Source: Pomacea canaliculata (lineage: Eukaryota; Mollusca; Gastropoda; Architaenioglossa; Ampullariidae). Taken from it: a stretch of DNA of 64,000 bases. This document shows positions 31,726 to 60,099 of the stretch, piece by piece (the first letter of the stretch is position 1; every line of letters starts with the position of its first letter). The stretch lies in contig NC_037595.1 in NCBI RefSeq assembly GCF_003073045.1, positions 868,001-932,000 of the forward strand, in the 5' to 3' direction. The position numbers and the translations under genes are program-made. The notes below the pieces were generated by a model. That model had not been told where the DNA came from. It saw only the letters and a list, made by a program, of their open reading frames with translations, and made no database searches.

Positions 31726-31837
31726 CGTGTTGCCACTTCACTTGTTCATACACGGGGCAGGGCACTAGAGTCCACCCCACCCCCGGGCTAAGTACGTATG
31801 TCACGTGGTCAGGGTGTTCCCGTCATATCCGGGTTCC

Positions 31838-32132
31838 TCTTGAAGTAAGTAGCAGCCTCATCAGCTAAGCACTGGGCATCAAACGACGGTGACGGCCACT
31901 TCCCTTCAGCCAATCTTCAGCCATCACGAGTGACATCCACACCTTTAATACCTTTATCAACTTCCGCTGACTGGGATCAGGACACACGTGATGTTACCGT
32001 AGGACATCAGGGTGTGCAGGGTGAGGTCAGGGTGTCGTGACCACATCTCATCTCAAAGCCTCTTAACAATCTCAGCCATCTTTTCCTTCCCGCAAGCACC
32101 GCGGCAGGTCACGTGGTCAGGGTGATTTGAAT
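31838..32132 (-). repeat. Left arm of a 290-bp inverted repeat (pair at 35460-35755)
   Basis: This segment is nearly identical, in reverse complement, to 35460-35755. Both share the words CACCCTGACCACGTGACC, AAGATGGCTGAGATTGTTAA and GGCCGTCACCGTCGTTTGAT. It also carries coding-like text on its minus strand (EGKWPSPSFDAQC, then LADEAATYFK). Part of it overlaps the 3' end of the candidate exon 32373-32053. Confidence 0.85.
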
Positions 32133-35459: not shown

Positions 35460-35755
35460 AAGCACCCTGACCACGTGACCTGCCGCGGTGCTTGCGGGAA
35501 GGAAAAGATGGCTGAGATTGTTAAGAGGCTTTGAGATGAGATGTGGTCACGACACCCTGACCTCACCCTGCACACCCTGATGTCCTACGGTAACATCACG
35601 TGTGTCCTGATCCCAGTCAGCGGAAGTTGATAAAGGTATTAAAGGTGTGGATGTCACTCGTGATGGCTGAAGATTGGCTGAAGGGAAGTGGCCGTCACCG
35701 TCGTTTGATGCCCAGTGCTCAGCTGCTGAGGCTGCTGCTTACTTCAAGAGTGTTT
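35460..35755 (+). repeat. Right arm of the 290-bp inverted repeat
   Basis: Reverse-complement partner of 31838-32132. It carries the frame DEMWSRHPDLTLHTLMSYGN and, further on and running past the arm, EGKWPSPSFDAQC, YFKSVWKPEVAGSPLPEF and LYSMPFFCQAHATTEKS with a stop near 35848. Natural composition suggests a former coding region. The frames do not join without a break, so no gene is called. Confidence 0.8.
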
Positions 35756-36702
35756 GGAAACCAGAGGTTGCTGGATCCCCCCTCCCTGAATTCTTGTACT
35801 CCATGCCATTCTTCTGTCAGGCACATGCGACTACAGAGAAGAGTTGATCAAGAGATCATGTTATCAAGCATTGATCACAGAAACTGTTATCAGAATAAAT
35901 ACTTTTATTAATCCTACCTCCTCCAAACAAAGGAACAAATAAAGCCAAGGTATGCAGCCATTAGCTTAATCAGTCAGCCGGGTAAGGTGAAGTTGAAAGT
36001 AACCAAGATTTATACAAACACCACCACTCGGGACAGGCTATTACAAGAACCTGTTACTTTTAAACAGGCAGAAACACAGCTAGGAAGGTTTGAACTTCTA
36101 ATCCTAACTAAAATAAATAATGTGCAACACCTGTAGGTGTTGTGAGTGTGTTTTATAACCTCAGCGCATCGACTTTATGAAGGCGCGAAGAGCTCGCTTG
36201 TAAAAAGAAACATCAAAAGGCCGACTTCCGGTCTTGGTACAAGAAGCCAGTGAGCACACTACTACTTGCTAACCACGCAACATGCACCAGGCCACCATCA
36301 AGGGTGTTTCCTACCTCGGGTACTGTTCAACTTTTATTTCATAGCATCATTCCAGAAAACCTTCAAGTCCATGACATCTGCAGTGACCTCCATTGTCCAG
36401 GGTACAACCCGAGGACACGCAGCAGCAGGCAAAGCAAGACCTTACCACCAGGGTAAAAGACAGTGTCAAGTGTAGAGAATGGAGACCAGCACCGACAAGA
36501 GCCAGCTGTTGGCTGAGGGTATTGGCAGAGATTTACATACAGAAGGTGCACCACGTGGCAGTGAGCGGATGGAGCCAGCAGTCCTCAACTTCCTCCTGGA
36601 CACTGAGCGCGTGGCGCGTGCAAAGCTTAGTTCCTCTGTGCACAGAGCTACTGATGCCCTCAGTGATGCTGGACTGGGATGATGGCACTCTGTGGTGTAG
36701 AG

Positions 36703-36708
36703 TATAAA
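36703..36708 (+). promoter_or_regulatory. TATA box of lectin B
   Basis: TATAAA in GTAGAGTATAAAACAGACTC, 53 bp before the ATG. The surrounding 150-200 bp, back to GACACTGAGCGYGTGG, is conserved in the lectin C promoter while sequence further out is not. Confidence 0.75.
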
Positions 36709-36755
36709 ACAGACTCACAACATCTACTGGCAGCTTACACCAAGCACTGACCAAC

Positions 36756-37754
36756 ATGTCTTCAGCAAGTGTGCTCCTCCTCGTCACACTCCTGGGCTTG
36801 AGCAGTGAGTATGAGTAGAGATGTTGCTATGTCTAAATACTTCTCTAGCCTGCTAGTCTACATGTTATTTTCTGTTAAAATGAAAAGTAACTCATAGCTT
36901 GGGTGACAACAGTGGGTAGCATTCTATACAGCGACTGCTTTATCCACGAAGAATAAGAAGTAACACAGAATAACTACACGAACGGCTGGCACAGTGGAGG
37001 GGGACCTGCAGTGTCTGTGCTGTCGTCTGTGATGGTGGGGTGATGGTGATGATGATGGTTGGGTGTGCAGGTTGTCTTGCCTGTCGTCAATCATCGTTGG
37101 GACGACGCCCGTGCAGACCTGGCCGTTGGCGATGCCCCGCCCCCTGGGTGCGGTTCCGTTTGTCCTGCTACACTTACATCGAGCATCCTCTGCCCTGGAT
37201 AGATGCTGCAGTAAGTCTGGATGCTGACCTCTGTCATCACTTAACCTCTAGCTCCATGCATACATTTACAAATGTGTGATCTCTATAACTGCAAAGTCTA
37301 AGAACTCCTCGTGGCCATCGCTTCAACTCGCTAAACACTTATTTCAGGTTTTACAAAAGTACAGTCTTGTTTGTGTCAAACATTAAAACACTGTCACGGT
37401 CTGTGGCAAGCTTGGTCAAGATAAACTGTGGTTGGTGTAAGCATCATCAAGCTGTAAAGTGGTTTGTGTCAAGCATGAATATGTTATACTTGTTTACAAG
37501 TTGGACATTGTCAGCAAGGGAAATAGATGAGGCTGCTGTACTGGCATGCCAGGGTTAGGGTTAGACATGCCACACAGAATTATGATCAGTATCTTGTAAG
37601 CTACATAAGGGGTAGAAAGACACGAAAGACATAAATGAGTATTTCCCGCATTTCAAATTTGGCTAAGATTGCAGGTAGATGGTGATACTAGATAGTCTTC
37701 ATTGGCAAATACGAGATAATAATAATAATAATAATAATGATGATGATGATGATG

Positions 37755-37796
<42 letters not shown>

Positions 37797-40310
37797 GATA
37801 TTTCTAGATAACAGATATTTCACGACATTATATTTCATATTTATCACAGAGTCTCTGCAAGTTACTTGGTGCTAATCTTGTCGAAATCAACTCGGCGGCA
37901 GAGAACATGTTTGTCAACAACATTTACAAGAGCAGAAACGGTAAGGGAGGCTGTTTTCAAATTTCCGCAAGACTTGCCTTCTGGTCTATTGCTGTACAAA
38001 CACCTGTACAAACACCTGTACAAACACCTGTACAAACACCTGTACAAACACCTGTACAAACACCTGTACAAACACCTGTACAGTTACCTGTACGTTACAC
38101 GTCACCACTTGTTCTTATCATCCTCACATATAACAATGAAAATAGAACACTAAATTAATTGTTTACTGGTCAAGATTAACAACGGTACAAGTCGCATTAC
38201 TGACTTGTTTACTCGTCACCTTTAACAAATAACAAATAACAAATAACAAATAAAGTTGCCTGAGTGGCCACAGTAACGAGCACTCAGTGGAACATAAACC
38301 TCTCCGAGGGTGAAAGCTGACCACGTGACTGTACTGACCACCTCGAGCACAGCAGGACGACTCGACCACTACGTAAACAACAGAACGTGTGGAGCTCAAA
38401 GTGTGGGGTCAAGGTTCACGGTTAGCGGCTAAAACTAAAGTTTGCTAATAAAGTATTAAATACATGTTAATCACTGAACATCTACAATCTAATTACTTAT
38501 TGTGTTTAAATTGTCAGCTTCTCAACGGTTTTGAAGCAATTTTTATCGAGAAACTTTTTTGAATTTGCCTGAGGTGTTGGTCAGCTGGGAGTGTGTAATA
38601 CGTAGTTAGGTGATATCAATTGTAGTTTGTAAAATATTTGCGCAATTACATTTTAAAATGGCGACTGCCACTTTGTGGTCAAGTTGTGCCAGTTAATGAC
38701 AGATGTCAACCAATGACACGCCAGCTTTATATCTTCTTCTTTCCCTCTGATGAGTGATGTCCCTTGGCCTGACAGCTGGAGGGAGCTAGCCACAGACTTG
38801 TGTGGGACCACCTCTGTGTTAGTTTGTTATTCCATAGATGTAGGTGGAGTCTGAGCGTATTTACTTACTTGTGATGTTTGTTGCGCCCTTCTACTCTGTT
38901 GTGGACTGTTCCTCACTACTTGTGGTGAGTCCTTCCTTCCTTCCAGTCAACACTTTCATCCACTAACGCCTTCTGTCCCGTGCCATCGTGTTTTGGGGTA
39001 TGAGCCTTCATCCACACTTAAACTTGTCAGACACGGAAAACTAAGTTGTTTTTGATTGTTTGAGAGACCCTGTAGGTTGGTATATTTACTTTAGGTCAGT
39101 GATGCCCAACCTTTTTCGGCCTGCGGGCCATATCCATTTCGGACAGCCGTGTCGCGGGCCACTTCACCGCAAAAATACAAAAAAGAAAAAAAAATAGAGC
39201 AGATACTATTTTTTTATTAGAAACAAGTTGTACTTACCATTAATTATGTAGTCATTAGTGGGATATTTGAAGTTGTTTTCCCGAAACCAACTTCTGAATC
39301 TCCGGCATCATCGTAGAGACACCAAGTCGGAGCACTGAATCGAAATGTTCGTCCATCGAAAAAAAGATTGAGAGACGCACCTACGTGGGGATAAATACTC
39401 CTTCTTCCCTTTTTTCGTTTATTTCGTTTTTTTTTATTACTAACATGCCGATTTCCTGCACTGTGGGCAGAAGTTTCGCGGGCCGGATGGCACCGCGTCG
39501 CGGGCCGGATATGGCCCGCGGGCCGTAGGTTGGGCATCCCTGCTTTAGGTGATACTCTGTGCACCTCGTGATGTCTGCTGACAAGATGCGTGTCATCTCA
39601 TGTCATGTCATGTCATCCTGCATCTTGCTGTCTCCAGGTTTCTGGTCTCTTGTCGACATTTATTTGTTTGGAGAAGCAGTTGAAGGTTGGATCACTAAAT
39701 AAAGGGAGAATGCCTGCTCTATGGCATCTAGCAATAACGTGTTTCTACTTCTTCTATGAATATGATGTTTTAATTAATGATATATTATCTAATTATTAGT
39801 ATTTTATGTATTAATTCCTATGATGTACTTGCATGCCCTGATGTAAGACGCCTTGAGTCCGGCTGATAGTGTTATACAAATGCGATGATGGTGGTGATGG
39901 TGATGATGATGGTGGTGATGATGGTGGTGATGATTATTTCCTCTCAGTCGAGCATGGCTGGCTGGGTATCAATGACATCCAGCAAAATGGCCGCTGGGTG
40001 CTGACGTCAACCGGAAGACCCCTACCTTACAGCAACTGGGCCCCTGGGGAGCCCAACAACTACGCGGGTAAACAGGGCTGTGCCCTCATGTACAGAAACG
40101 GAAAATGGGACGACAACTCCTGCCTCATCTCGACTGCCTTCACCTTCGTCTGCGAAAGAAGGGTATGTAAAGTATGTAAAGTATGTAAAGTATGTAAAGT
40201 ATGTAAAGTATGTAAAGTAGAGTAGTGTAAGGGAGGCCACTCTCTCTAGTGGTCCAGCAGCTGTCTGTACCAGCGCGTGGCTTCTCTCCCTTCTGTGTCT
40301 CGTAAAGGCT

Positions 40311-40377
<67 letters not shown>

Positions 40378-40648: not shown

Positions 40649-41092
40649 AGACAGCCAAAACTCAAAAGAGGGAACATCGCTGTCACTACTGGCAACGGAG
40701 GAGACATATTCGACACTTCAAAAGAAATATTGTCATCCTGAGTCATCCTGATGTCTCTGGAATCCAAACATTTTCGTATCACAATAAACTCTCTTGGCAT
40801 GTGATTGCAGTCGTATTATTTATTGATGTATGTTGAACATGATGATATTTCTAATGAATCAGTCGTGTGGTGTATGTAAGTGTATTGTACACACCTACCC
40901 GTCTTTTTCTGTCAGCAATGTGTCTTGTGTCAATGTGTCACACGTGTCGGTCACAGAGCAGTCGCTGATGTAGTCAGAGTGTACTGTAGGGTGTAGTCAC
41001 AAACTATAGTTAGAGAATGTAGTCACACACCACCACTGCCACCGCCAGCAAAAACAACAACAAGCCACGAACAGGACAATTTGCTCATGGGA

Positions 41093-41098
41093 TTTATT
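41093..41098 (-). terminator. Polyadenylation signal of lectin D
   Basis: AATAAA on the minus strand, about 90 bp after the inferred TAG. A second AATA-rich site (AATATTTTATT) precedes it. Confidence 0.6.
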
Positions 41099-41185
41099 TT
41101 TGAATAAAATATTTATCTTTCAAGTGAAGTTGACAAATTTTCTAATCATTTTCATCTTTGTCTGTTGTGATGTTCTACTCGGTCG

Positions 41186-44023
41186 CTAGGACACCATGAA
41201 GGGAGTAGCGCCTGAAAAAACATTGTTGAGCAGTTGAATGCAGTGTACGCACGCGCAGACAGAGAGAGGGAAACAGAAAGAATGAGAATGAGAGACAGCG
41301 CGCAGGAAATGTAGATACCACGAGACTACTACCAGAGGTCAACATTGTAAACAAGTGAAGATTAATTAATGAGAAATACCAGTTGAATGCTACCAGAGGT
41401 CAGCTCCTCGTAAGCAGGTATTACATTCAGAGAAATTCCAGAGGACTGCTTGAGGACAACATTGTAAACAATAAACAATTGTTACATTAAGGAGAAATAC
41501 CAGGAGGCTACTACGAGATGGACATTAAAAAGCAACTGTTACATTCACAGAACTAGCAGGAGAATATCAATAGGAGAGATGTGGGTTGAAATCGAGATCG
41601 AAACCCACGCAACCCGATGGTCACTGTTGTGCACCGAAGACATCCGGGGAACTGACAGTTGATGTAGCTTGGATACACAGATGTCCTTCCTACACATCGT
41701 GTAGTGTTTAAAACAGATACCAGTGTAGTTGTATTTTAACATGTGGTTAATAGTATTTTATCAGGATATGAGGAGCACTATTTTGACAGGGTTAGACCCT
41801 TAAAGTCTGTCAGTAGGTCTGTAGGGTTGGTGTCCAGACTGACTTACTTCTCTCACAGACTGACTTACTTCTCTCACAGACTGACTTACTTCTCTCACAG
41901 ACTGACTTACTTCTCTCACAGACTGACTTACTTCTCTCACAGACTGACTTACTTCTCTCACAGACTGACTTACTTCTCTCACAGACTGACTTACTTCTCT
42001 CACAGACTGACTTACTTCTCTCACAGACTGACTTACTTCTCTCACAGACTGACTTACTTCTCTCACAGACTGACTTACTTCTCTCACAGACTGACTTACT
42101 TCTCTCACAGACTGACTTACTTCTCTCACAGACTGACTTACTTCTCTCACAGACTGACTTACTTCTCTCACAGACTGACTTACTTCTCTCACAGACTGAC
42201 TTACTTCTCTCACAGACTGACTTACTTCTCTCACAGACTGACTTACTTCTCTCACAGACTGACTTACTTCTCTCACAGACTGACTTACTTCTCTCACAGA
42301 CTGACTTACTTCTCTCACAGACAGACGGCATCTGGCTGGATATTGTATTGTCATGCCAGAGACCAGTACTGGACATCTGCGCACAGGTCTCCGTCCCTCC
42401 AATGTTGTTGGGTTGTCCAGCCTCCCAGTTGGAGTATGGCAAGGGTTTGCCAGTCGTCGTCAGCACCCAGCGTCCATCCTGAAGAATGTCGTTGATTCCC
42501 AGCCAGACTGCGACATTGACAGGTCAAACATCGGACAGTGCCAACAAGCTCCATGTTTACTTTGGCATTAAAGTTAAACAGTAAACATTGACATCAAAAT
42601 TGAATAACAGGATAAGAAATCTATTAACAGTATTTTCTGCCAATGATTTGTAAGCTGTTTATCACAAAGGGTTTAACCGAGAAGAAGTCATTGTTGAAAT
42701 TGTTCTGCTCCTGGCAGTATTGAGAGATCAAGACCTTGTAAGACAGACATGAACATAACGCCTGCCTCAATATATACAAGACATACATCAGTTTTATATT
42801 TCAAGTTGCATTCAAAATCCATTATCGAGAGTGTTTCCGTTGAAATAACATACAACATCACACGCATTTGTAGAGCCCTCGGCGTCAAGCTCGGAAAACA
42901 ATGGCGGTCATCATGATGATTTTCCCAGCATCACCCTCATCCCCGTCCCCCACATACCTGTGACTGTAGAGGGGGGATTAGAAAACCCAGGGGACCATAC
43001 CACGAGGCAGTCGGTGACTTCTGTGAATTGAGTCACTTACCATTTTTGCCGCCAATCAAATTCCGGACAAAATTATTTTCCGCGGCAGATGTGATTTGCA
43101 CGAGGTAGCCACCAAGAGTTCTGCAGAGACTCTGTCAAAATAACAAACACCAAATAGAGTGTTTACAGTTTGCTCTCCTGTCATCTTTATCCGAGAACTA
43201 ATTAATAATCCAACAAATCGACAACAAAAAACAAACTCTTATTCTTATTATTCTCTCAACATAAGCTATAGGAGTTCACTTCCGGTATCACCTGGAGCAC
43301 TGCATCACTGAAGGACTGGGATGCTGCATCCTCCATCACTAGGCTATGGGATGGTTTATATTTTGAAATAAACATTTTAAACCCCTAACCTACTACAGTT
43401 GTAATATATTATATATAGTACTTTGACTACGAAATGTCCTACCACGTAGCATTAATAAACGGTGTTTACAGACTTAGTATAAACACACTTCAGCTTGTAG
43501 TAGGTGGCACAGTATAGTAGGTGGTACAGTATAGTAGGTGGCACAGTATAGTAGGTGGTACAGTATAGTAGGTGGCACAGTATAGTAGGTGGCACAGGTA
43601 TATTCTCGTATTTTGGACTTTAGAAGTCCTTTCACACCACACAGGTGAGAACAGAAATCACAGACTGACCGCTGCGTCCGACCACGTGAGTGAATGTGGG
43701 ATGTAGGCGTAGCACGATCGTTCATACTGAGTCCAGGAGGGAGGACACGGAGAGCAATCTGCCAACATCAGACAGCAGGGGAACATCGGACTTTACTGTC
43801 TTAATAATTATACAAAAATAACACAACAAAGAGAAAAGGAAAGTCCAAGAACCTTCCATTAGACATGACATGTAGTCATCGTCGTACGACGACAGACAGT
43901 CGATGAGTGTAGAGAGGGAGCCTGGTCCCTCACATGACAAATACAGACAAGACAATGAAGTGAAAGCTACTCACGGCACATGCCACCAAGAGCCAGCAGC
44001 AAGAAAAATGTGGCTACAGACAT
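41186..44023 (-). CDS. Secreted C-type lectin D, with 23 tandem donors at exon 4
   Basis: Exons are 44023-43975, 43758-43670, 43131-43041, 42507-42310 and 41211-41186. Phases 1, 0, 1, 1 fit and total 453 nt, or 150 residues. The signal peptide is MSVATFFLLLALGGMC. The CTLD runs CPPSWTQYERSCYAYI, SLCRTLGGYLVQITSAAEN, WLGINDILQDGRWVL, NWEAGQPNN, GLWHDNTI and VCER. Ca-site motifs are altered: QPN replaces EPN and WHD replaces WND, so sugar specificity or calcium dependence may differ. The exon 4 donor GAGAA|GTAAGT is the first of 23 identical 21-bp repeats; use of a later donor or none would add SVCERSK heptads. The last exon (ATPFMVS and TAG) follows a good acceptor (TTTTTTCAG), with AATAAA at 41098-41093. 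Intron 1 is short, and introns 3 and 4 flank the repeat-bearing exon. Confidence 0.9.
41839..42321 (-). repeat. Splice-donor minisatellite: 23 identical 21-bp units
   Basis: Starting exactly at the end of lectin D exon 4, the unit TGTGAGAGAAGTAAGTCAG plus two bases is repeated 23 times. By eye there is no variation, so the expansion or homogenisation is recent. Each unit contains the last codons of the exon (TGT GAG AGA) and the strong donor GTAAGT. On the minus strand the lectin frame runs through all copies as SVCERSK and ends WTPTLQTY and a stop. Confidence 0.97.
43495..43598. repeat. 17-bp tandem repeat in lectin D intron 2, six copies
   Basis: Unit TAGTAGGTGGCACAGTA, with GCACAG/GTACAG alternating, lies about 70 bp downstream of the exon 2 donor on the coding (minus) strand. 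Confidence 0.9.
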
Positions 44024-45529: not shown

Positions 45530-48165
45530 AGTCTCTCAGCAACAGGCGGCCAAACTTTGTACAGGAGTGGTGCTGAAGGCACCCAAACAGATGCGGAGCC
45601 CTTGATGATGAATAGGATCGAGAATTTTAAGGTAGGACTCTCGAGCAGAGCCATAGATAATGGATCCATAGTCTAACTTTGAGCGGATCAGGGCACGGTA
45701 GAGACGTAGCAGAACAGTTCGATCCGCCCCCAGTTGACATGGCCAACTACTCTAAGAATGTCCAAGGCTTTCTGACAAGATAGGCGTAGAGACTTGATAT
45801 GAGGTAGAAAGGACAGTTTACGGTCAAAGATGACCCCAAGGAATTTTACTTCCTGCACCACTTTGAGTATCGTGCCATTGACAGAAATAGATGGGTTTGG
45901 AAACATACTTCTCATGTTACAAAAGTGAAGGCATACTGACTTCATAAGAGAAAAATTGAAGCCGTTTTCTGTCACCCACTTTTGTACTGCATTACACACA
46001 GCTGAAGCCGGCGTTCGAGGCATGGAAGGGAGCGACCTCGTATGTAGATAGCGAAGTCATCTACATATAACGAGGCCTCCAAACCTGGACAGACTGATTT
46101 CAAGATTGAGTCGATTTTGATGTTGAAAAGAGTTGGAGAAAGAATGCTGCCCTAAGGGACGCCCATTTCCTGTTCCTGAGGATCAGACAGTATAGACCAG
46201 GGGTGGGCAATTAATTTTCCCAAGGGGCCGCATGAGAAATTGGGATGGTTTTAGAGGGCCGGACTAATACAGTTAACTCAGTTGTACCCAATACTGTATA
46301 TATAGTATATATACTGGCGGGCGGGCCAGCGGGTGGGCCGGTCAGAGACAGGAGGCGGGCCGGATCCGGCCCGCGGGCCGGCCTTTGCCCAGGTCTGGTA
46401 TAGACCCTACTCTGACTTGGAAGAGGCGATGTGAAAGAAAATTCTCGATGAAGAGTGGCATACGACCCCGGAAGCCCAGGGCATGGAGGTCTAACAGAAT
46501 ACCTTGCTTCCAGGTAGTGTCGTATGCCCTCTCCAAATCAAAAAACACCCCTAGAACATGTTCTTTGCCGACAAAAGCGTCCCTGACAAAGGTTTCAAAA
46601 CGGACCAAGTGGTCCAGGGTGCTGCGGCGTTTTCTGAAGCCACACTGCAGGTTGTAGAGGAGACCTTGAGATTCGAGATGCCAGGTGAGCCGAGCATTCA
46701 CCGTGCGTTCAAAAGTTTTACATAGACAACTAGTGAGAGCGATAGGACGGTACGAGTTTGGGTCAGAGGGATCCTTACCAGGTTTTGGGATGGGTACCAC
46801 GACTGCCTCTCTCCACTAGGGAGGGAAACAGCCGGATACCCAAATAAAGTTAAAAATGTCTAGAAGGAGAAGGAGAGACCTGTGGAAGATGAGTAAGCAG
46901 TTGATAAGAAATGTTGTCTGGGCCTGGTACAGAGTCTTTGCACTTTTGAAGGGCCTGTTGTAGTTTAGAAATAGAAAAAGGAAGATTGTACTTTTCGGAG
47001 TTATCGGAAGAAAATTCACAACCAAAAGATTCCTGAGTAGTTTTCAAGCGTTGGAAATCTGAAGAGTAGTGTGAAGAGGAGGAGTTGAGAGCAATGATGG
47101 AATTTGCAACATCTCGTATCTCTGTGAGAACAGTCTCCAACCCGCAGATGGCCTATCGAGCTAGCCTGAAACCTTCCCTTTATCTTCCTAATGGCCGCCC
47201 TCACCGCCTGGGAAGTGGTACGGGAGGACAGTGAAGACACAAACCTTTGCCACGCAAGTTTTCTTGCTTGTTTAAAAATAAATCGAGCATGAGCTCTACT
47301 TCTTTTAAAACTTAGAATGTTTTCAATAGTAGATTGCCGGAAAGCTAGGCGCTGGGCCTTCTCTCTAGCGCGCTGGGCCACCCTACACTCCTCTGTGAAC
47401 CAAGCACCCGGGGGTGGTTATTTCGATGCCTCCGTGTAGGGATTGTCTCTGATGCGATTTTAGTCAAAATTGAGGTAAAGACTTTGGCAGGATGCAACAT
47501 AGGATCGTTACCAAAGTCCCCAACCTCAAAATTAAAAGTGGAATTTCGGAGAAGGCGGGTGGAGCAGATGGTCTGAAAAGCAGGCCAGTCCGCTTTAGCC
47601 AAATTCCACCCGCCGTTATGAAGATTATTGTCCCGCTCCAGACTATTTTTAAATTTTAATATTATAGGGAAGTGGTCACTGCCGCACGGGTCGTCGTGTA
47701 CACCCCAGTTAGTCTAATAAAAGTGCTGTGCTGACTACTGATAAGTCTATTGTTGACTCTGTGCTATTGTAAGGATGACTAAAGGTGTTAGAGCCGTCGT
47801 TTAAAATACAGAGATCGCTTTCCATAAAAAAAGCTCCCAACAACTCTCCTCTGGTGTCAGTCGAGGCCCTGCCCCACAAGGGGTGGTGTCCATTAAAGTC
47901 CCCTAAAAGAAGGACTGGAGCAGGAAGTTGGGTCAAAAGACCATCAAGGTCCTGTCGGGTTATCCGAGCTGAAGGAGGTAGATAAAGACAGCAGATAGTA
48001 ATAGTCTTGCCCAGGGAAACTCTGGCAGCAACAGCTTGAAGAGGAGTGGAGAGTGGTATCTGGCTAAATAAAAGATTAGAACGAATAAGAAGAGCAGTCC
48101 CACCTGAGGACCTTTGACCTTTGACGGAGTCAGGGAAGCCCGAAGGCACTAAAACTAGTCTACTC
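45530..48165 (-). mobile_element. 5'-truncated Jockey-like non-LTR retrotransposon (LINE)
   Basis: Minus-strand pieces in element order: endonuclease (48150-47709) with PVLLLGDFNGHHPLWG and a TIDL segment; a linker (47602-47016) with WNLAKADWPAFQ; then reverse transcriptase with PGPDNISYQLL (near 46930), VPIPKPGKDPSDPNSYRPIA (46797 on), RT motif A in VFFDLERAYDTTW (near 46540), and LYVDDFAIYIRG carrying the catalytic YVDD (near 46050). After it comes SVNGTILKVVQEVKFLGVIFD. The N-terminal part of the endonuclease and any ORF1 are missing, and several frameshifts separate the blocks, so it is dead. A hAT MITE (46198-46397) splits the RT. No poly(A) or target duplication was fixed. Clade assignment is by motif style only. 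Confidence 0.88.
46198..46397. mobile_element. hAT-type MITE, 200 bp, nested in the LINE
   Basis: Starts CAGGGGTGGGCAATTAATTT and ends GGCCTTTGCCCAGGTCTG (imperfect inverted ends). Perfect 8-bp target duplications GTATAGAC flank it at 46190-46197 and 46398-46405. There is no coding capacity. It interrupts the reverse transcriptase, so it is younger than the LINE insertion. Confidence 0.93.
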
Positions 48166-49728: not shown

Positions 49729-52700
49729 TCACTGGCACTAGAGAGGTCAATGTGTGAGGGATAAAGTTAACCAAGATGGAGAATACATCAGATGTAGAGT
49801 GACAGTGAGGAAATCACGATGAATTATTGTTGTTGTTATTGTTGTTGTTGTTGTCAGCCTTTACGAGACACAGAAGGGAGAGAAGCCACACGCTGGTACA
49901 TGACCAGACAGCTGCTGGACCACTAGAGAGAGTGGCCTCCCTTACACTACTCTACTTTACATACTTTACATACTTTACATACCCTTCTTTCGCAGACGAA
50001 GGTGAAGGCAGTCGAGATGAGGCAGGAGTTGTCGTCCCACTGTCCGTTTCTGTACATGAGGGCACAGCCCTGTTTACCCGCGTAGTTGTTGGGCTCCCCA
50101 GGGGCCCAGTTGCTGTAAGGTAGGGGTCTTCCGGTTGACGTCAGCACCCAGCGGCCATTTTGCTGGATGTCATTGATACCCAGCCAGCCATTGTCGACTG
50201 AGATGACAGAAGGAAAAAAGAAGATGTAAAGCTGGCATGCCAAGAAGAACAAGAACAAGAAATAAAAAATCTTGATATCAGCTCTGCACAACTGGACATT
50301 AGAAGCTCAGAGCTCAGCTGCTAAACACATGTCTAAACCTTTCTTTTCTTTTTTAGATGCAAGTTTGGAAGAACTCTTTGAAATTGCTTTGAAGCCGGTC
50401 AGAAGTCAACAATTTCAAGAAAATAATTTGTTTTTAGACGTTTAAATGTTCCTTGATTAACATTTATCATATTTTATTTGCAAACTGTAAGAACATAATA
50501 TACACTCGTGTAATTACCACAATACCTTTGCAAAAGATTTTCTAGTGTTTAGGCTGTGTGTTGCAGTATTCCTGGATTTTAGCAGAAAACGTGGGCAAGA
50601 GTTGACCTTAAATGTCACTACCCACGTGAGCATAAGCTACAGGGCAACGTCACGCACATCACTCACATGTGATCACACACTTTACCACGTGGCTCACGAC
50701 CCCCACCCCGGCTGTTCCCCGAACACGAAACTCGACGTGTGATGTAAAGTATATAAAAATTTAATCAACGACAAAAAACAACAACAAACAAACCAAAAAA
50801 CAAAACAAACAAACAAACAAACGAAAAAACAACAAAACAACAACCATACAAATCCATGCAAAGCAAAGAGTCGTCTAGGGAAGTCCCAGTGCTATCCGTG
50901 CTAAGAGTATCCACTATCCCAGTGCTGCTACCTCTCTCTCTATCATTCACTTCACACGCTCATCAACTTAGCTCTGATGTTAAAGCTGTTCTTGTTATTG
51001 TGGGTTCACGATGATGGTTGGGTGGAGACCAGTACTTCAGCCGACAGTCACGGCAGTCTCAAGCCTTTCACTTGAAAGTGTTGCTCCGCCTGTTCATCGT
51101 CTTTCCTGTCCGATCTGCCAACCATGTCGGAGCGACGACTGCTCTCCCGGCGAGACGTGGGGTCTCCGACGACTGCACTGCCACCTACAGCCGAACGAAC
51201 AGCACCTTCATGCAAAGCTCTCCGGGTCCTTGGAGTGCAGTGAATCGAGCAGACGTGTTCCTCGTCTGACATCATCGACTTCTGACCTTAGTGTCGAGCT
51301 ATCTCTCACAGGTAGTTGCAGTCCTCTCACAGGTAGTGCAAGTCTTAGTCACATAATTCTTTGATGTCCATGGCGACAGCAGGCAGTCCTTCTGTTCTTC
51401 GTCACTGACTCGTAGGTTCTCTAAGGTTTTCTAAGGTTCCCGTCCTCTTGGCCGGTCTCCAGATAGAAGTGACGTCTGCCTTACAGATGCTACAGTCACT
51501 TCAACTGCTGACCAGGTGCTCCGTCCACTCTGACGTCATGCCGAGAAGTACTGCCTGGTTCCCTGTTCCCTATTTTACTTAGCGCATTCGCACGTCACAT
51601 ACGCCAAGGGCTGCCATTGGTCCCTCACTAATCAACCAATCAACTAGCCAACATTGACAAGAGAACGATACCCCCCCCCCCTTTCAACAAATGTCAAACT
51701 TTTAAACAAAGATAACGTGTAAGTGTAAAGAAAACGAATTTTATAGTTTGATCATGTTTGACACACACCATAGCTAATGTTTTAACACTTTTAATGTTTT
51801 TTAGCGAGTTGAAGCGATGGTCATACAGGGACCTCAGCAAGTATAGGCTTTACACCTTTCTATACATATAAAGTAAACAATTAATTCATTATTCTACTTG
51901 CATGTAGTGGTAACGTAGAGGTGTTTGTACAGGTGTTTGTACAGGTGTTTGTACAGGTGTTTGTACAGGTGTTTGTACAGGTGTTTGTGCAGGTGTTTGT
52001 ACAGGTGTTTGTACAGGTGTTTGTGCAGGTGTTTGTGCAGGTGTTTGTACAGGTGTTTGTACAGGTGTTTGTACAGGTGTTTGTGCAGGTGTTTGTACAG
52101 GTGTTTGTACAGGTGTTTGTGCAGGTGTTTGTGCAGGTGTTTGTACAGCAATAGAACAGAAGGCAAGTCTTGCGGAAATTTGAAAACAGCCTCCCTTACC
52201 GTTTCTGCTCTTGTAAATGTTGTTGACAAACATGTTCTCTGCCGCCGAGTTGATTTCGACAAGATTAGCACCAAGTAACTTGCAGAGACTCTGTGATAAA
52301 TATGAAATATAATGTCCTGAAATATCTGTTATCTAGAAATATCTATAATAATTATAATAATAATTATAAAGATACCTTTCGATATTTGCATATTTAGCTA
52401 AATCTTGTTTCTCTGTCGAATGTATACAGGTAGAGATGAAAAGTGAGTTACATTTACAGCACCAGGAGTATTACAAGATCCCAGACAACCTTGATAGACA
52501 AATGTCGGGACTATTTTCACAATCTGTAAATAAAGCTGTCGTATTTGTCAATGAAGACTTTATTGTATCACCAGCGACTTGCAATATCAGACAAATCATA
52601 AAGCCGGGAAATACATATTTACATATTTATCTCTTTTGTGTCTTTTACATCTTATGTAGCTTACAAGATACTGATCATAATTCTGTGTGGCATGTCTAAC

Positions 52701-53363
52701 CTAACCCTAACCCTGGCATGCCAGTACAGCAGCCTCCTCTATTTCCCTTGCTGACAATGTCCAACTTGTAAACAAGTATAACATATTCATGCTTGTCACA
52801 AACCGCTTTACAGTTTGATGATGCTCACACCAGCCACAGTTTATCTTGACCAAGCTCGCCACAGACGGCGACAGTGTTTTAATGTTTGACACAAACAAGA
52901 CTGTACTTTTGTAAAACCTGAAATAAGTGTTTGGCGAGTTGAAGCGATGGCCACGAGGAGTTCTTAGACTTTGCAGTTATAGAGATTACACATTTGTAAA
53001 TGTATGCATGGAGCTAGAGGTTAAGTGCTGGCAGAGGTCAACATCCAGACTTACTGCAGCATCTATCCAGGGCAGAGGATGCTCGATGTAAGTGTAGCAG
53101 GACAAACCCGATGGCACCCAGGGGGCGGGACACTGACAACGGCCAGGTCTCCACGGGCTTCGACACGGCGTTGGAATGGAATGAACACCTGCACACAGTA
53201 AGCCAACACATGCAGTGACAGCAATTTACATCGTTATAGTCGAGTGTGTTTATTAAATAAAATGTACACAATCGAGGAGTACTGGGACACAGCAACATCT
53301 CTACTCATACTCACTGCTCAAGCCCACGAGTGTAACGAGAAGAATCAGTTTTGGTGAAGACAT
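49594..53363 (-). CDS. Secreted C-type lectin C (minus arm of inverted duplication)
   Basis: Exons are 53363-53315, 53188-53055, 52290-52200, 50197-49983 and 49605-49594, phases 1, 0, 1, 0, giving 166 residues. The signal peptide is MSSPKLILLVTLVGLS. Exon 3 matches lectin B at nucleotide level by eye, and exon 4 differs at only a few residues (VDNGWLG for VEHGWLG, GQWDD for GKWDD). EPN and WDD motifs are kept. By contrast the first half of exon 2 is very different (HSIPTPCRSPWRPGRCQC against lectin B CRQSSLGRRPCRPGRWRC) and two codons shorter, although the CTLD start SCYTYIEHPLPWIDAA is the same. The last exon reads VRL and a stop, with AATAAA further left near 49476. The exon 4 donor lies in three tandem 9-bp units. 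Confidence 0.92.
49699..49728. repeat. (ATG)n microsatellite, lectin C intron 4
   Basis: About ten units; the homologue of the (CAT)28 tract in lectin B intron 4. Confidence 0.9.
49956..49982 (-). repeat. Tandem 5' splice sites at lectin C exon 4: three 9-bp units
   Basis: Three copies of GTATGTAAA (minus strand) directly at the exon 4 end, followed by GTAGAGTAG as in lectin B, which has six copies. Confidence 0.92.
50300..51890. other. Lectin C intron 3; no supported gene
   Basis: Little of this matches lectin B intron 3. AAAC-rich sequence lies at 50765-50845. The 51010-51365 segment is GC-richer and open on both strands with natural-looking text (minus: TSRRESSRRSDMVGRSDRK), but has no start, splice site or known motif. 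Confidence 0.4.
51919..52150. repeat. 12-bp minisatellite in lectin C intron 3, about 19 copies
   Basis: Unit AGGTGTTTGTAC, with TGC variants, is the reverse complement of the lectin B array. Variant units (GTGCAGG) are interspersed, which lets array history be compared with the eight-copy B array. Confidence 0.95.
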
Positions 53364-53410
53364 GTTGGCCAGTGCTTGACACACGATGCCAATAGGTGTT
53401 GTGAGTCTGT

Positions 53411-53416
53411 TTTATA
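53411..53416 (-). promoter_or_regulatory. TATA box of lectin C
   Basis: TATAAA in GTAGAGTATAAAACAGACTC, the same word as in lectin B, 48 bp before the ATG. Promoter similarity to B extends to about 53530 and then stops, marking the duplication edge. Confidence 0.75.
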
Positions 53417-53926
53417 CTCTACACCACAGAGTTCAATCATGCCAGTCCAGTACCACTGAGAGGGCAATAGTAGCTCTGTGCATGATAAGGAAACTAAGCT
53501 TTGCGAGGTCCACACGCTCAGTGTCTCCACTTTCGCCAGCGAAGCACAAATTTCACATTGACCCTGACCTTTGTCCTCTCAAGGAAGTGTGTTTGCAGCT
53601 GATTATATATGCATAATAATACTGTATCTACATATTATGTATGTACAATAAGCCTTTTCTTGACTGCCGAGCGGATATGCTGGTCCAATAGTATGTGTGG
53701 GGGTGAAACGACTGGATGTCCAGAGGTTGACGAGTGTCCTCAGTCAAGACTGTGGACCGGTGATCAGTCCTGCTCCATGTATGTTTGTCGAGCAGGTATT
53801 TCTCTGTCAGACTTGGCTCTGACCTGCTCTGAGATGCTGTAAAGAACTATCTTACTGAGTTAAGACTAGCTAGCCCCGCTTCACAGTTGCAAGAAATGTT
53901 TCTTACTGTGGCCTCTTATAAAACCC

Positions 53927-58558: not shown

Positions 58559-58793
58559 GTTGGTGCTGATGTTAGTGTTAGTGTTGGTGTTAGTGCTGAT
58601 GTTAGTGTTCGTGTTAGTGTTAGTGTTCGTGTTAGTGTTAGTGTTAGTGCTGATGTTAGTGTTAGTGTTGGTGTTAGTGCTGATGTTAGCGTTCGTGTTA
58701 GTGTTAGTGCTGATGTTAGTGTTAGTGTTGGTGCTGATGTTAGTGTTCGTGTTGGTGTTAGTGCTGATGTTAGTGTTAGTGTTGACCAGGCAC
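58559..58793. repeat. TTAGTG-type minisatellite just past lectin E exon 4
   Basis: Units of 6 bp (TTAGTG, TTGGTG, TTCGTG) organised in 24-30 bp blocks with GCTGATG. It begins about 30 bp downstream of the lectin E exon 4 donor on the minus strand. Unspliced, the lectin frame stays open across it (TLTLTSALTPT). Confidence 0.92.
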
Positions 58794-58823: not shown

Positions 58824-60099
58824 ATTTTTTCTCGCAAATGAAGGAGTGAAGCTTGACGCAGTCGTCGTCATCCCAGAAGCCGTCGGCGGTCATCTGAAGA
58901 CAGTACTGACCTCGACCCTTGCCGTTGTTTGGCTCATTTTTGGCCCAGTTGGTGTAGGGCAGCCTTGACCCGGAACTGGTCAGCACCCACTGTCCATCTT
59001 TCACTAGGTCGTTCATTCCAAGCCAGACATTCTTTGCTGTGGGTATACAAACATCTCTCAGCTTAAAACTGTCAGCATCTTGTGATGATGTAGATGTGTC
59101 TGAATGTAATAGTTTGTTTTGCTGACGATGAAAGGAATGAGAGAATGGAAATGAAAGATTTCAAAGTGAAATGAGTCTCACGTGCCTTTCTTGCCGTCCA
59201 TGAGGTTCTTCACAAAAGTATTTTCTCCAGGAGAGGTGACTTCGGCAAGTCGAGCTTTTAGCAGCTGGCAAGCAGTCTGAGGGCAGACGACAAGCAGATG
59301 ACCCGGCGACCACCCAGCAACACACAGATACTTACATTAATAAGATCCTACAGTGATTACTGTCCATAACATTTCCTACCAAAATCATCTTAGTATAAAC
59401 AAGGACTGAAAGCTACTGAATGTTTTAGAATCTGTAAACATTGGCAAGATGGTGGTGATGGTAATGACGACGACAGCGATAATATTACCAATCATACTGA
59501 TAGTGTGATGTGATACACCTGTTGCTATTCTTTCGGCGTCAGTTGGTTGTCATATTGTGTACTCAGTGACTCACCTGAGCAGTCAGCCAGCTACATACCT
59601 GAGTAGTCAGCCAGCTACATACCTGAGTAGTCAGCCAGCTACATACCTGAGCAGTCAGCCAGCTACATACCTGAGCAGTCAGCCAGCTACATACCTGAGC
59701 AGTCAGCCACGATGTTGCTTCCTTAACAAAGACATAGCAGAATCCTCTGTACTTTTGCCAGTAGCTTGGACAGGAGCGAGATGCTGTACAAATGTTAAGA
59801 CAAGGCTATTTAAGTTGAGGGTTATTGAGGTCTGATAGTAAACTGTAAATAAACCGAAAGCTAACACAAACCAAGGAATATTAGGTTTTTAATTGTCATG
59901 TCCTTATTGTTAGAATACTTGAGTTGCAAGAAAGATGTGTAAACATGTGGTCAGTAAACATGATGTCAGTAAACATGATGATCTTTATTTACACACTGAC
60001 AACGACCTCGGTCAGCTGACTCATATCTTGCGACAAGCTTGCGACTAGCTTACCGCAGAGACTGAAGCAGGCGAGGAGAAGGACCAGGACTCGACCCAT
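58824..60099 (-). CDS. Secreted C-type lectin E (last exon not found)
   Basis: Exons are 60099-60054, 59783-59695, 59276-59186 and 59036-58824; phases 1, 0, 1 match the other lectins and exon 4 leaves in phase 1. The signal peptide is MGRVLVLLLACFSLCG. The CTLD: SCPSYWQKYRGFCYVF, ACQLLKARLAEVTSPGEN, VWLGMNDLVKDGQWVL, NWAKNEPNN, GFWDDDDC and FICEKK. EPN and WDD are present. Exon 2 ends in GCTCAG|GTATGT, the first of six 24-bp repeats of that donor. Exon 3, at the family's fixed 91 nt, ends AAAG|GCACGT, so intron 3 would be a GC-AG intron; the GT four bases later breaks the frame. Exon 4 ends AAAT|GTAAGA. No TATA box was seen near the ATG, unlike A-D. Confidence 0.88.
59571..59709 (-). repeat. 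Splice-donor minisatellite at lectin E exon 2: six donors, 24-bp period
   Basis: From the end of exon 2, GGCTGACTGCTCAGGTATGT plus four bases recurs every 24 bp, giving six CTCAG|GT sites. Five are GTATGT; the one furthest from the exon is GTGAGT, the best match to consensus. Read-through stays in frame and would repeat WLTAQVCS-type octets. Confidence 0.95.

Follow-up and report, generated by a model that had tools for sequence, protein, structure and literature searches.

Tandem repeats that copy splice signals are described in human genes and in lancelets. In the interferon-induced human gene IFI6 (also G1P3 or 6-16), the minisatellite has a unit of 12 bp. Splicing there reportedly uses two downstream units as donors and yields three mRNAs (PMC4526556). 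The amphioxus mirages are tandem exon-intron boundary duplications in Adh3, globin, TnC and PGBD5 genes, which the available parts of the reports describe as length-unstable and as leaving regular splicing undisturbed (PMC3087553, PMC3902484). In human segmental duplications, internal tandem repeats that lie at exon-intron boundaries can, according to the available part of their report, generate alternative splicing via novel introns (PMC2812944). Here we describe a 64,000-nucleotide stretch of the genome of the caenogastropod snail Pomacea canaliculata (contig NC_037595.1, positions 868,001 to 932,000; the window), in which a minisatellite at the end of exon 4 of a C-type lectin gene, lectin D, carries 23 copies of a 5′ splice site motif.

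The lectin D array (D array) resembles the amphioxus mirages of Adh3, the globins BflGb6 and BflGb9, TnC and PGBD5 in that its unit holds an exon end and an intron start, copies the splice signal and is short (10–72 bp in Adh3). It is unlike them in its host, a gastropod lectin gene, and in its 23 perfect copies, a unit length divisible by three and an open reading frame. Copy-number differences lie between haplotypes in amphioxus, whereas in the snail they lie between duplicated genes (lectins B and E). With IFI6, the D array shares several in-frame tandem donors at one exon end; IFI6, however, is interferon-induced and has known transcripts, whereas the D array, set against IFI6 as against the mirages, is known here from sequence alone. 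The human segmental-duplication repeats differ in being described as intron formation in paralogs, and the available part of that report describes no in-frame donor array. The D array shares the anatomy that defines a mirage, and its donors are laid out like those of the IFI6 minisatellite, in a phylum that is new for such elements as far as the literature was searched.

Variable peptide repeats are described in other C-type lectins. The abalone perlucins R0, R5 and R8 are molluscan C-type lectins with variable short peptide repeats after the lectin domain, attributed to splicing; unlike those of lectin D, the perlucin repeats are 10 residues long and of another sequence, and the likeness is one of architecture only. 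The available text of the perlucin paper contains none of the terms 'exon', 'intron' or 'splice site' and gives no genomic mechanism (PMC4019660). The Rlec proteins of Macrobrachium nipponense are also C-type lectins with variable tandem repeats, for which a slippage origin is proposed, but these repeats, in the part of the report available, lie in coding exon 2, outside the lectin domain and away from the splice site (PMC7536079). Searches of the literature on lectins, molluscs and Pomacea gave no donor arrays in lectin or Pomacea genes among the matches listed.

An array of 23 donor motifs spans the end of lectin D exon 4

The D array lies at 41835–42326 on the minus strand, where Tandem Repeats Finder reports a period of 21, 23.4 copies and a score of 977. 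Listed unit by unit, it consists of a partial end and 23 full copies of 21 bp, all 23 identical, as an earlier note on this DNA had read from the letters. A pattern search of the assembly (440,159,624 bases in 24 contigs) with a unit doublet, allowing at most three mismatches, gave 22 matches, all within the array. A perfect 23-copy array is not a product of chance.

On the minus strand each unit reads as 13 exonic bases (GTCTGTGAGAGAA, the VCER codons and one further base) followed by 8 intronic bases (GTAAGTCA). The array straddles the exon-4/intron-4 boundary, starting 13 nt inside the exon and not, as the note had placed it, exactly at the exon end. The codons TGT GAG AGA and the GTAAGT that had been assigned to each unit do recur 23 times on the minus strand; GTAAGT occurs 23 times inside the array, and gaa/GTAAGT (the slash marking the boundary) is likewise present in 23 copies. 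This donor scores 8.26 bits, in the top 1.5% of the GT dinucleotides of the window; donor bit scores for this array and for a second one, in lectin F, come from a position weight matrix or table. On the minus strand, the 23 alternative donors would put the last exonic base at 42310 (the first donor) and then at every 21st base down to 41848 (the last).

The lectin frame is open across the array, again as the note had it, and runs from exon 4 to a stop at 41810. Splicing at donor k would add k−1 heptads, which gives a range of 0–22 and not the 23 that had been counted; 23 SVCERSK motifs arise in lectin D only with read-through of the intron. With the first donor, exon 4 would end in ...CCGTCTGTCTGTGAGAGAA and with any later one in the array-internal ...AAGTCAGTCTGTGAGAGAA, and each would join GCGCTACTCC, the start of the candidate exon 5 described below. 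Read on the plus strand, each unit resembles a strong 3′ acceptor (ctgacttacttctctcacag/A), whose 9.87 bits place it in the top 0.6% of AG dinucleotides; no plus-strand gene is known for this reading, and no further search for one was made.

Three upstream parts of the gene were placed on the minus strand. Exon 2 (CPPSW...WSDAA; 43670–43747, 5′ limit approximate) has the phase-0 donor gcg/GTCAGT, and exon 3 (SLCRTLGGYLVQITSAAEN...; 43041–43131) the phase-1 donor atg/GTAAGT, both located by tblastn and by reading of the junctions. Exon 4 up to its first donor (42310–42507) ends ...VCER plus A in phase 1, as located by its junctions and by the PF00059 match of the joined exons. The three exons are each open and join in frame to 122 residues, of which residues 19–122 match positions 2–107 of the Lectin_C profile (PF00059; 72.7 bits against a cut-off of 22.6, E 4.9e-20). 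Lectin D lacks the WxD...C cysteine that is present in lectins A, B and E and so does not carry all four conserved cysteines; both usual disulphides, with their four cysteines, are typical of most C-type lectins and not of the profile family as such. The same cysteine is missing in the paralogs L002, L003 and L054 and in one L009 paralog (L009:5094-4918), so that its loss belongs to the subgroup of lectin D.

Most paralogous exon-4 ends carry a donor motif

From the window alone it is not certain that the repeated motif is a splice site, since the frame continues and may be coding sequence; searches of the snail's own genome settled most of this question. We surveyed paralogous exon-4 ends for a donor motif, defined as GTRAG, GTATGT or GTRAAG lying 6–24 nt downstream, counted from where the last cysteine codon begins. 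The source was a set of 74 matches, 30 of which came with loci and 20 more of which were fetched by place, the 24 others not being fetched on their own account. Matches short of the domain end were dropped, and the 55 entries came to 48 distinct ends once B and E, L036 and L047, and five double listings had been merged.

The motif was present at 38 of the 48 ends, with a chance rate of 4.8% per 18-nt stretch, and 26 of these 38 carry the full GTRAGT. It lies in phases 0, 1 and 2 in 9, 14 and 15 paralogs, respectively. Because all three phases occur, the constraint looks like a nucleotide signal and not like shared codons; because the phase of the junction varies among paralogs, the frame after it appears not to be strongly constrained. 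In about 14 of the 38, the readthrough frame reaches a stop codon that overlaps the motif, an arrangement that a protein end could also explain, although a protein end could not explain the conserved bases beyond the stop.

The nearest paralogs by E-value, L002 (C6:1105286-1105483) and L003 (C6:1100078-1100275), whose exons 4 are 62% and 61% identical to that of lectin D, each carry a single GAGAGGA/GTAAGTC donor. One GTAAGTC donor each is also found in L054 and in L009:5094-4918. On these sequences, a single donor copy is likely, but not proven, to be the ancestral state. The motifs in 38 of 48 paralogs, the single-copy donors of L002 and L003 and an exon 5 resembling that of L002 together support the proposal of the earlier note that what the D array repeats would be a genuine 5′ splice site, the one that closes exon 4.

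A candidate terminal exon lies downstream

The candidate exon 5 (41075–41211, minus strand, 3′ end approximate) follows the acceptor atgttttttcag/GCGCTACTCC and would encode the tail SATPFMVS before a stop; its support is the acceptor score together with similarity to the terminal exon of L002. At 8.57 bits its acceptor, at 41211, outscores each of the eight acceptors known in the cluster and is the best in the region downstream of the array (next 4.67). The junction is in phase 1 in lectin D, L002 and L003 alike, and an AATAAA lies 113, 138 and 119 nt downstream of the acceptor, respectively, L002 having a second one at 80 nt. The corresponding tails of L002 and L003 read RTFRWF and SAFSWCH. 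Around the polyadenylation signal L002 and L003 align with an E-value of 9.6e-12, and the exon-5 stretches of lectin D and L002 reach a local score of 29 that was attained by none of 1000 shuffles and none of 115 other pieces of D. Searches with blastn and tblastx for an exon 5 conserved among lectins A, B, D, E and F brought up only the duplication of B and E and two short matches, one between A and F and one between D and E. We regard this exon 5 as supported by sequence comparison but not proven.

Other donor arrays in the lectin cluster

The window also carries the lectin genes A, B, E and F and the first piece of a sixth, G, and two further, independent arrays of the same kind (B4/E4 and F2), located by Tandem Repeats Finder and the junctions, cover donors in three of these genes. 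At exon 4 of lectin B, the 9-bp unit GTATGTAAA is repeated 6.3 times (40163–40219, plus strand), and lectin E, the inverted duplicate of B, has 3.3 copies of it (49953–49982, minus strand). The exon-4 proteins of B and E are 95.9% identical although these sister arrays (B4/E4) differ in length; the assembly holds one haplotype, in which no second array of the D type was found. At exon 2 of lectin F, a 24-bp unit is repeated 5.7 times (the F2 array; 59573–59709, minus strand, last exonic base 59575), with five CAG/GTATGT donors (9.83 bits) and a last CAG/GTGAGT (12.38 bits). If this last, intron-proximal donor is used, 40 residues (five VCSWLTAQ octads) would be inserted inside the lectin domain. 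The difference in copy number between B and E and the existence of the B4/E4 and F2 arrays show that such arrays arise and change length in this cluster. The inverted duplication that holds lectins B and E spans 36599–40342 and 49824–53525, in blocks that are 84–96% identical.

Leaving out the duplicate gene E and an unclear F3 donor, we found an array starting at −20 to +5 of 3 of the 12 lectin donors in the window (0.19 expected, p ~0.0009, 20,000 circular shifts) and at −20 to +70 of 6 of the 12 (0.65 expected, p 0.00025, circular shifts). Among acceptors, taken as a control, none of eight had an array at −20 to +5 and one of eight had one within 70 nt, 6 of the 8 acceptor coordinates being off by 1–5 bases. 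Minisatellites also start 39–67 nt downstream of the donors D2, B3, E3 and F4 (43498–43602, 37992–38093, 51915–52148 and 58559–58784, respectively), leaving the donor uncovered. A survey of exons 2 and 3 gave no array over a donor besides F2; its motif-bearing entries (33 and 75) include some redundancy and should not be read as numbers of genes.

A general rule that the minisatellites of the window were born from donors is not supported. The rule was examined on the 24 of 38 arrays whose unit contains all four bases; 22 of these lie away from known donors, and 4 of the 22 are donor-like (at least 7 bits), with 1.96 expected from shuffles. In total, 38 merged arrays with a period of at least 9 cover 5,659 of the 64,000 bases of the window; a table in the genome paper counts no more than 873,801 bp as tandem repeats for the 440 Mb, by methods that may differ from those of the window count (PMC6129957). 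Nor is a period divisible by three supported as a sign of selection, because 16 of the 34 other arrays in the window share this property. The earlier note's argument from the frame was right about the period of 21 and the open frame, but these 16 arrays and the variable phase among paralogs make it weaker than it looks. The note had also claimed that phase is kept from every donor into the next exon. This follows from the period alone; a candidate exon 5 in phase 1 is indeed present. Judged by the exon-4 ends surveyed across the genome, donor arrays in this family are a local accident that has been repeated and not a family trait.

Origin and use of the array

We lean towards a mirage-type donor minisatellite: a tandem duplication of the exon boundary that most likely expanded recently and is tolerated, with one end of the array used mostly and a leaky choice of donor. 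The exon-4/intron-4 boundary would have been duplicated in tandem into 23 × 21 bp, probably by slippage between copies of GTCTG 21 bp apart. The single-copy reconstruction, ...CCGTCTGTCTGTGAGAGAA/GTAAGTCAGTCTGGACACC, has GTCTG at both ends of 21 bases, and these flanking 5-bp direct repeats would fit slippage or unequal exchange. The perfect identity of the units implies recent expansion or homogenization, although short-read polishing of a PacBio assembly could also even out the units. The resulting pre-mRNA would present 23 phase-1 5′ splice sites of equal strength, with the same sequence and near context, each open in the lectin frame and able to join a phase-1 terminal exon 5 whose coding part is no more than a short tail. 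Use of donor k would leave the lectin domain intact and insert k−1 heptads, each with one cysteine, ahead of the tail. The spliceosome would most likely favour one end of the array in most transcripts and leak to the other donors, and the array may be tolerated because every outcome keeps the lectin domain, the tail being unconstrained. Eperon and colleagues reportedly found in 1993 that, among strong donors lying close together, the intron-proximal one can be preferred; if this preference is true of lectin D, long tails would dominate, the opposite of a fallback to the first donor.

Several observations weigh against this interpretation. Array-covered donors were seen at only 2 of the 48 distinct exon-4 ends (D and B/E), so they are not a feature of the family; L054 has just a weak array (10 bp × 2.6, score 39) starting 4 nt into the intron, and the arrays of L057, which starts about 25 nt after the donor, and L063, near an exon end that has no donor motif, do not cover a donor. 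Lectins B and E are about 61% identical to D, as is L003, yet carry a 9-bp array, which leaves the single-copy ancestry short of proof. The acceptor score of exon 5 is not significant alone, 0.4 such sites being expected among 31 AG dinucleotides; over the whole downstream regions of lectin D and L002 the same exon-5 match, with its score of 29, comes out best, but 200 shuffles, averaging 22, reach as much as 33; and exon 5 of D scores 18 against L003, a value attained in 23.5% of shuffles and by 69 of the 115 other pieces of D. Finally, leaky donor use is something we infer, and the lancelet mirages are described, in the available parts of the reports, without disturbance of regular splicing (PMC3087553, PMC3902484).

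Those lancelet reports match what would be seen if splicing in every tissue took the first donor alone, leaving the remaining 22 units as neutral intron and the protein with no extra heptad. The variation of phase among paralogs, which shows no pressure for frame, also agrees with this possibility, but nothing local marks the first of the 23 donors, which share both their sequence and their near context, and IFI6 is reported to use two downstream repeat units (PMC4526556); we consider exclusive use of the first donor possible but rather unlikely. More doubtful still is a functional ladder, by which donor choice and inherited copy number would together set the length of a cysteine-bearing tail and might tune lectin oligomerization or activity. 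By analogy, abalone perlucin variants that carry 0, 5 or 8 copies of a 10-mer repeat at the C terminus are reported to alter aggregation and CaCO3 precipitation (PMC4019660), the immune function of one type of prawn Rlec is reportedly enhanced by repeat number (PMC7536079), and every D unit would add one cysteine with the frame kept. Conservation is lacking, however: the array is absent from the nearest paralogs and turned up at a single place, and the tail exon is not only short but variable. Equally doubtful is the idea of a splice-donor rheostat, in which 23 interchangeable donors on one allele would give graded cysteine-bearing tails (0–22 heptads), their range set by a heritable, fast-mutating copy number, as a device that arose independently in sister lectins (9 bp in B/E, 24 bp in F) within one cluster.

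Exon 4 could instead be the last coding exon, the array being plain coding sequence for 23 heptads in a protein that ends SVWTPTLQTY at the 41810 stop. The open frame is as this would require, the readthrough frames of A4 and B4/E4 also hit early stops, and a protein end would give the overlap of stop and motif noted in about 14 of 38 paralogs. The presence of the motif in 38 of 48 paralogs, in three phases and with the full GTRAGT beyond any stop codon in 26, together with the exon-5 similarity between D and L002, makes this reading very improbable. An assembly artefact, with a wrong copy number or a spurious identity of the units, is just as hard to credit. The genome of a highly heterozygous animal was assembled from PacBio reads with smartdenovo and polished with Illumina reads and Pilon (PMC6129957), and such polishing could have homogenized the units; the array, at 492 bp, is nonetheless far shorter than the mean PacBio read of 10.1 kb given there (PMC6129957), and lectins B and E carry arrays of the same kind.

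Other features of the window

A pair of inverted repeats at 31837–32127 and 35460–35750, each about 290 bp long and 98.6–99% identical, may be a recent mobile element. A reverse transcriptase domain (RVT_1, E 7e-14) lies at 46342–46815 on the minus strand and is likely part of a LINE-like element with open pieces at about 45.7–48.2 kb. Scans of the window for tRNA genes and Rfam families were empty, and searches of viral contigs with the D array and with the LINE reverse transcriptase gave no usable locus.

Implications

The D array extends boundary-duplicating minisatellites, described in lancelets and human genes, to a mollusc. It would also show, in concrete genomic terms, how variants with C-terminal repeats, like those of perlucin, could come about. 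With 23 identical 5′ splice sites placed 21 nt apart and in frame within one gene, lectin D is a natural competition test that could show whether position alone decides which donor is used.
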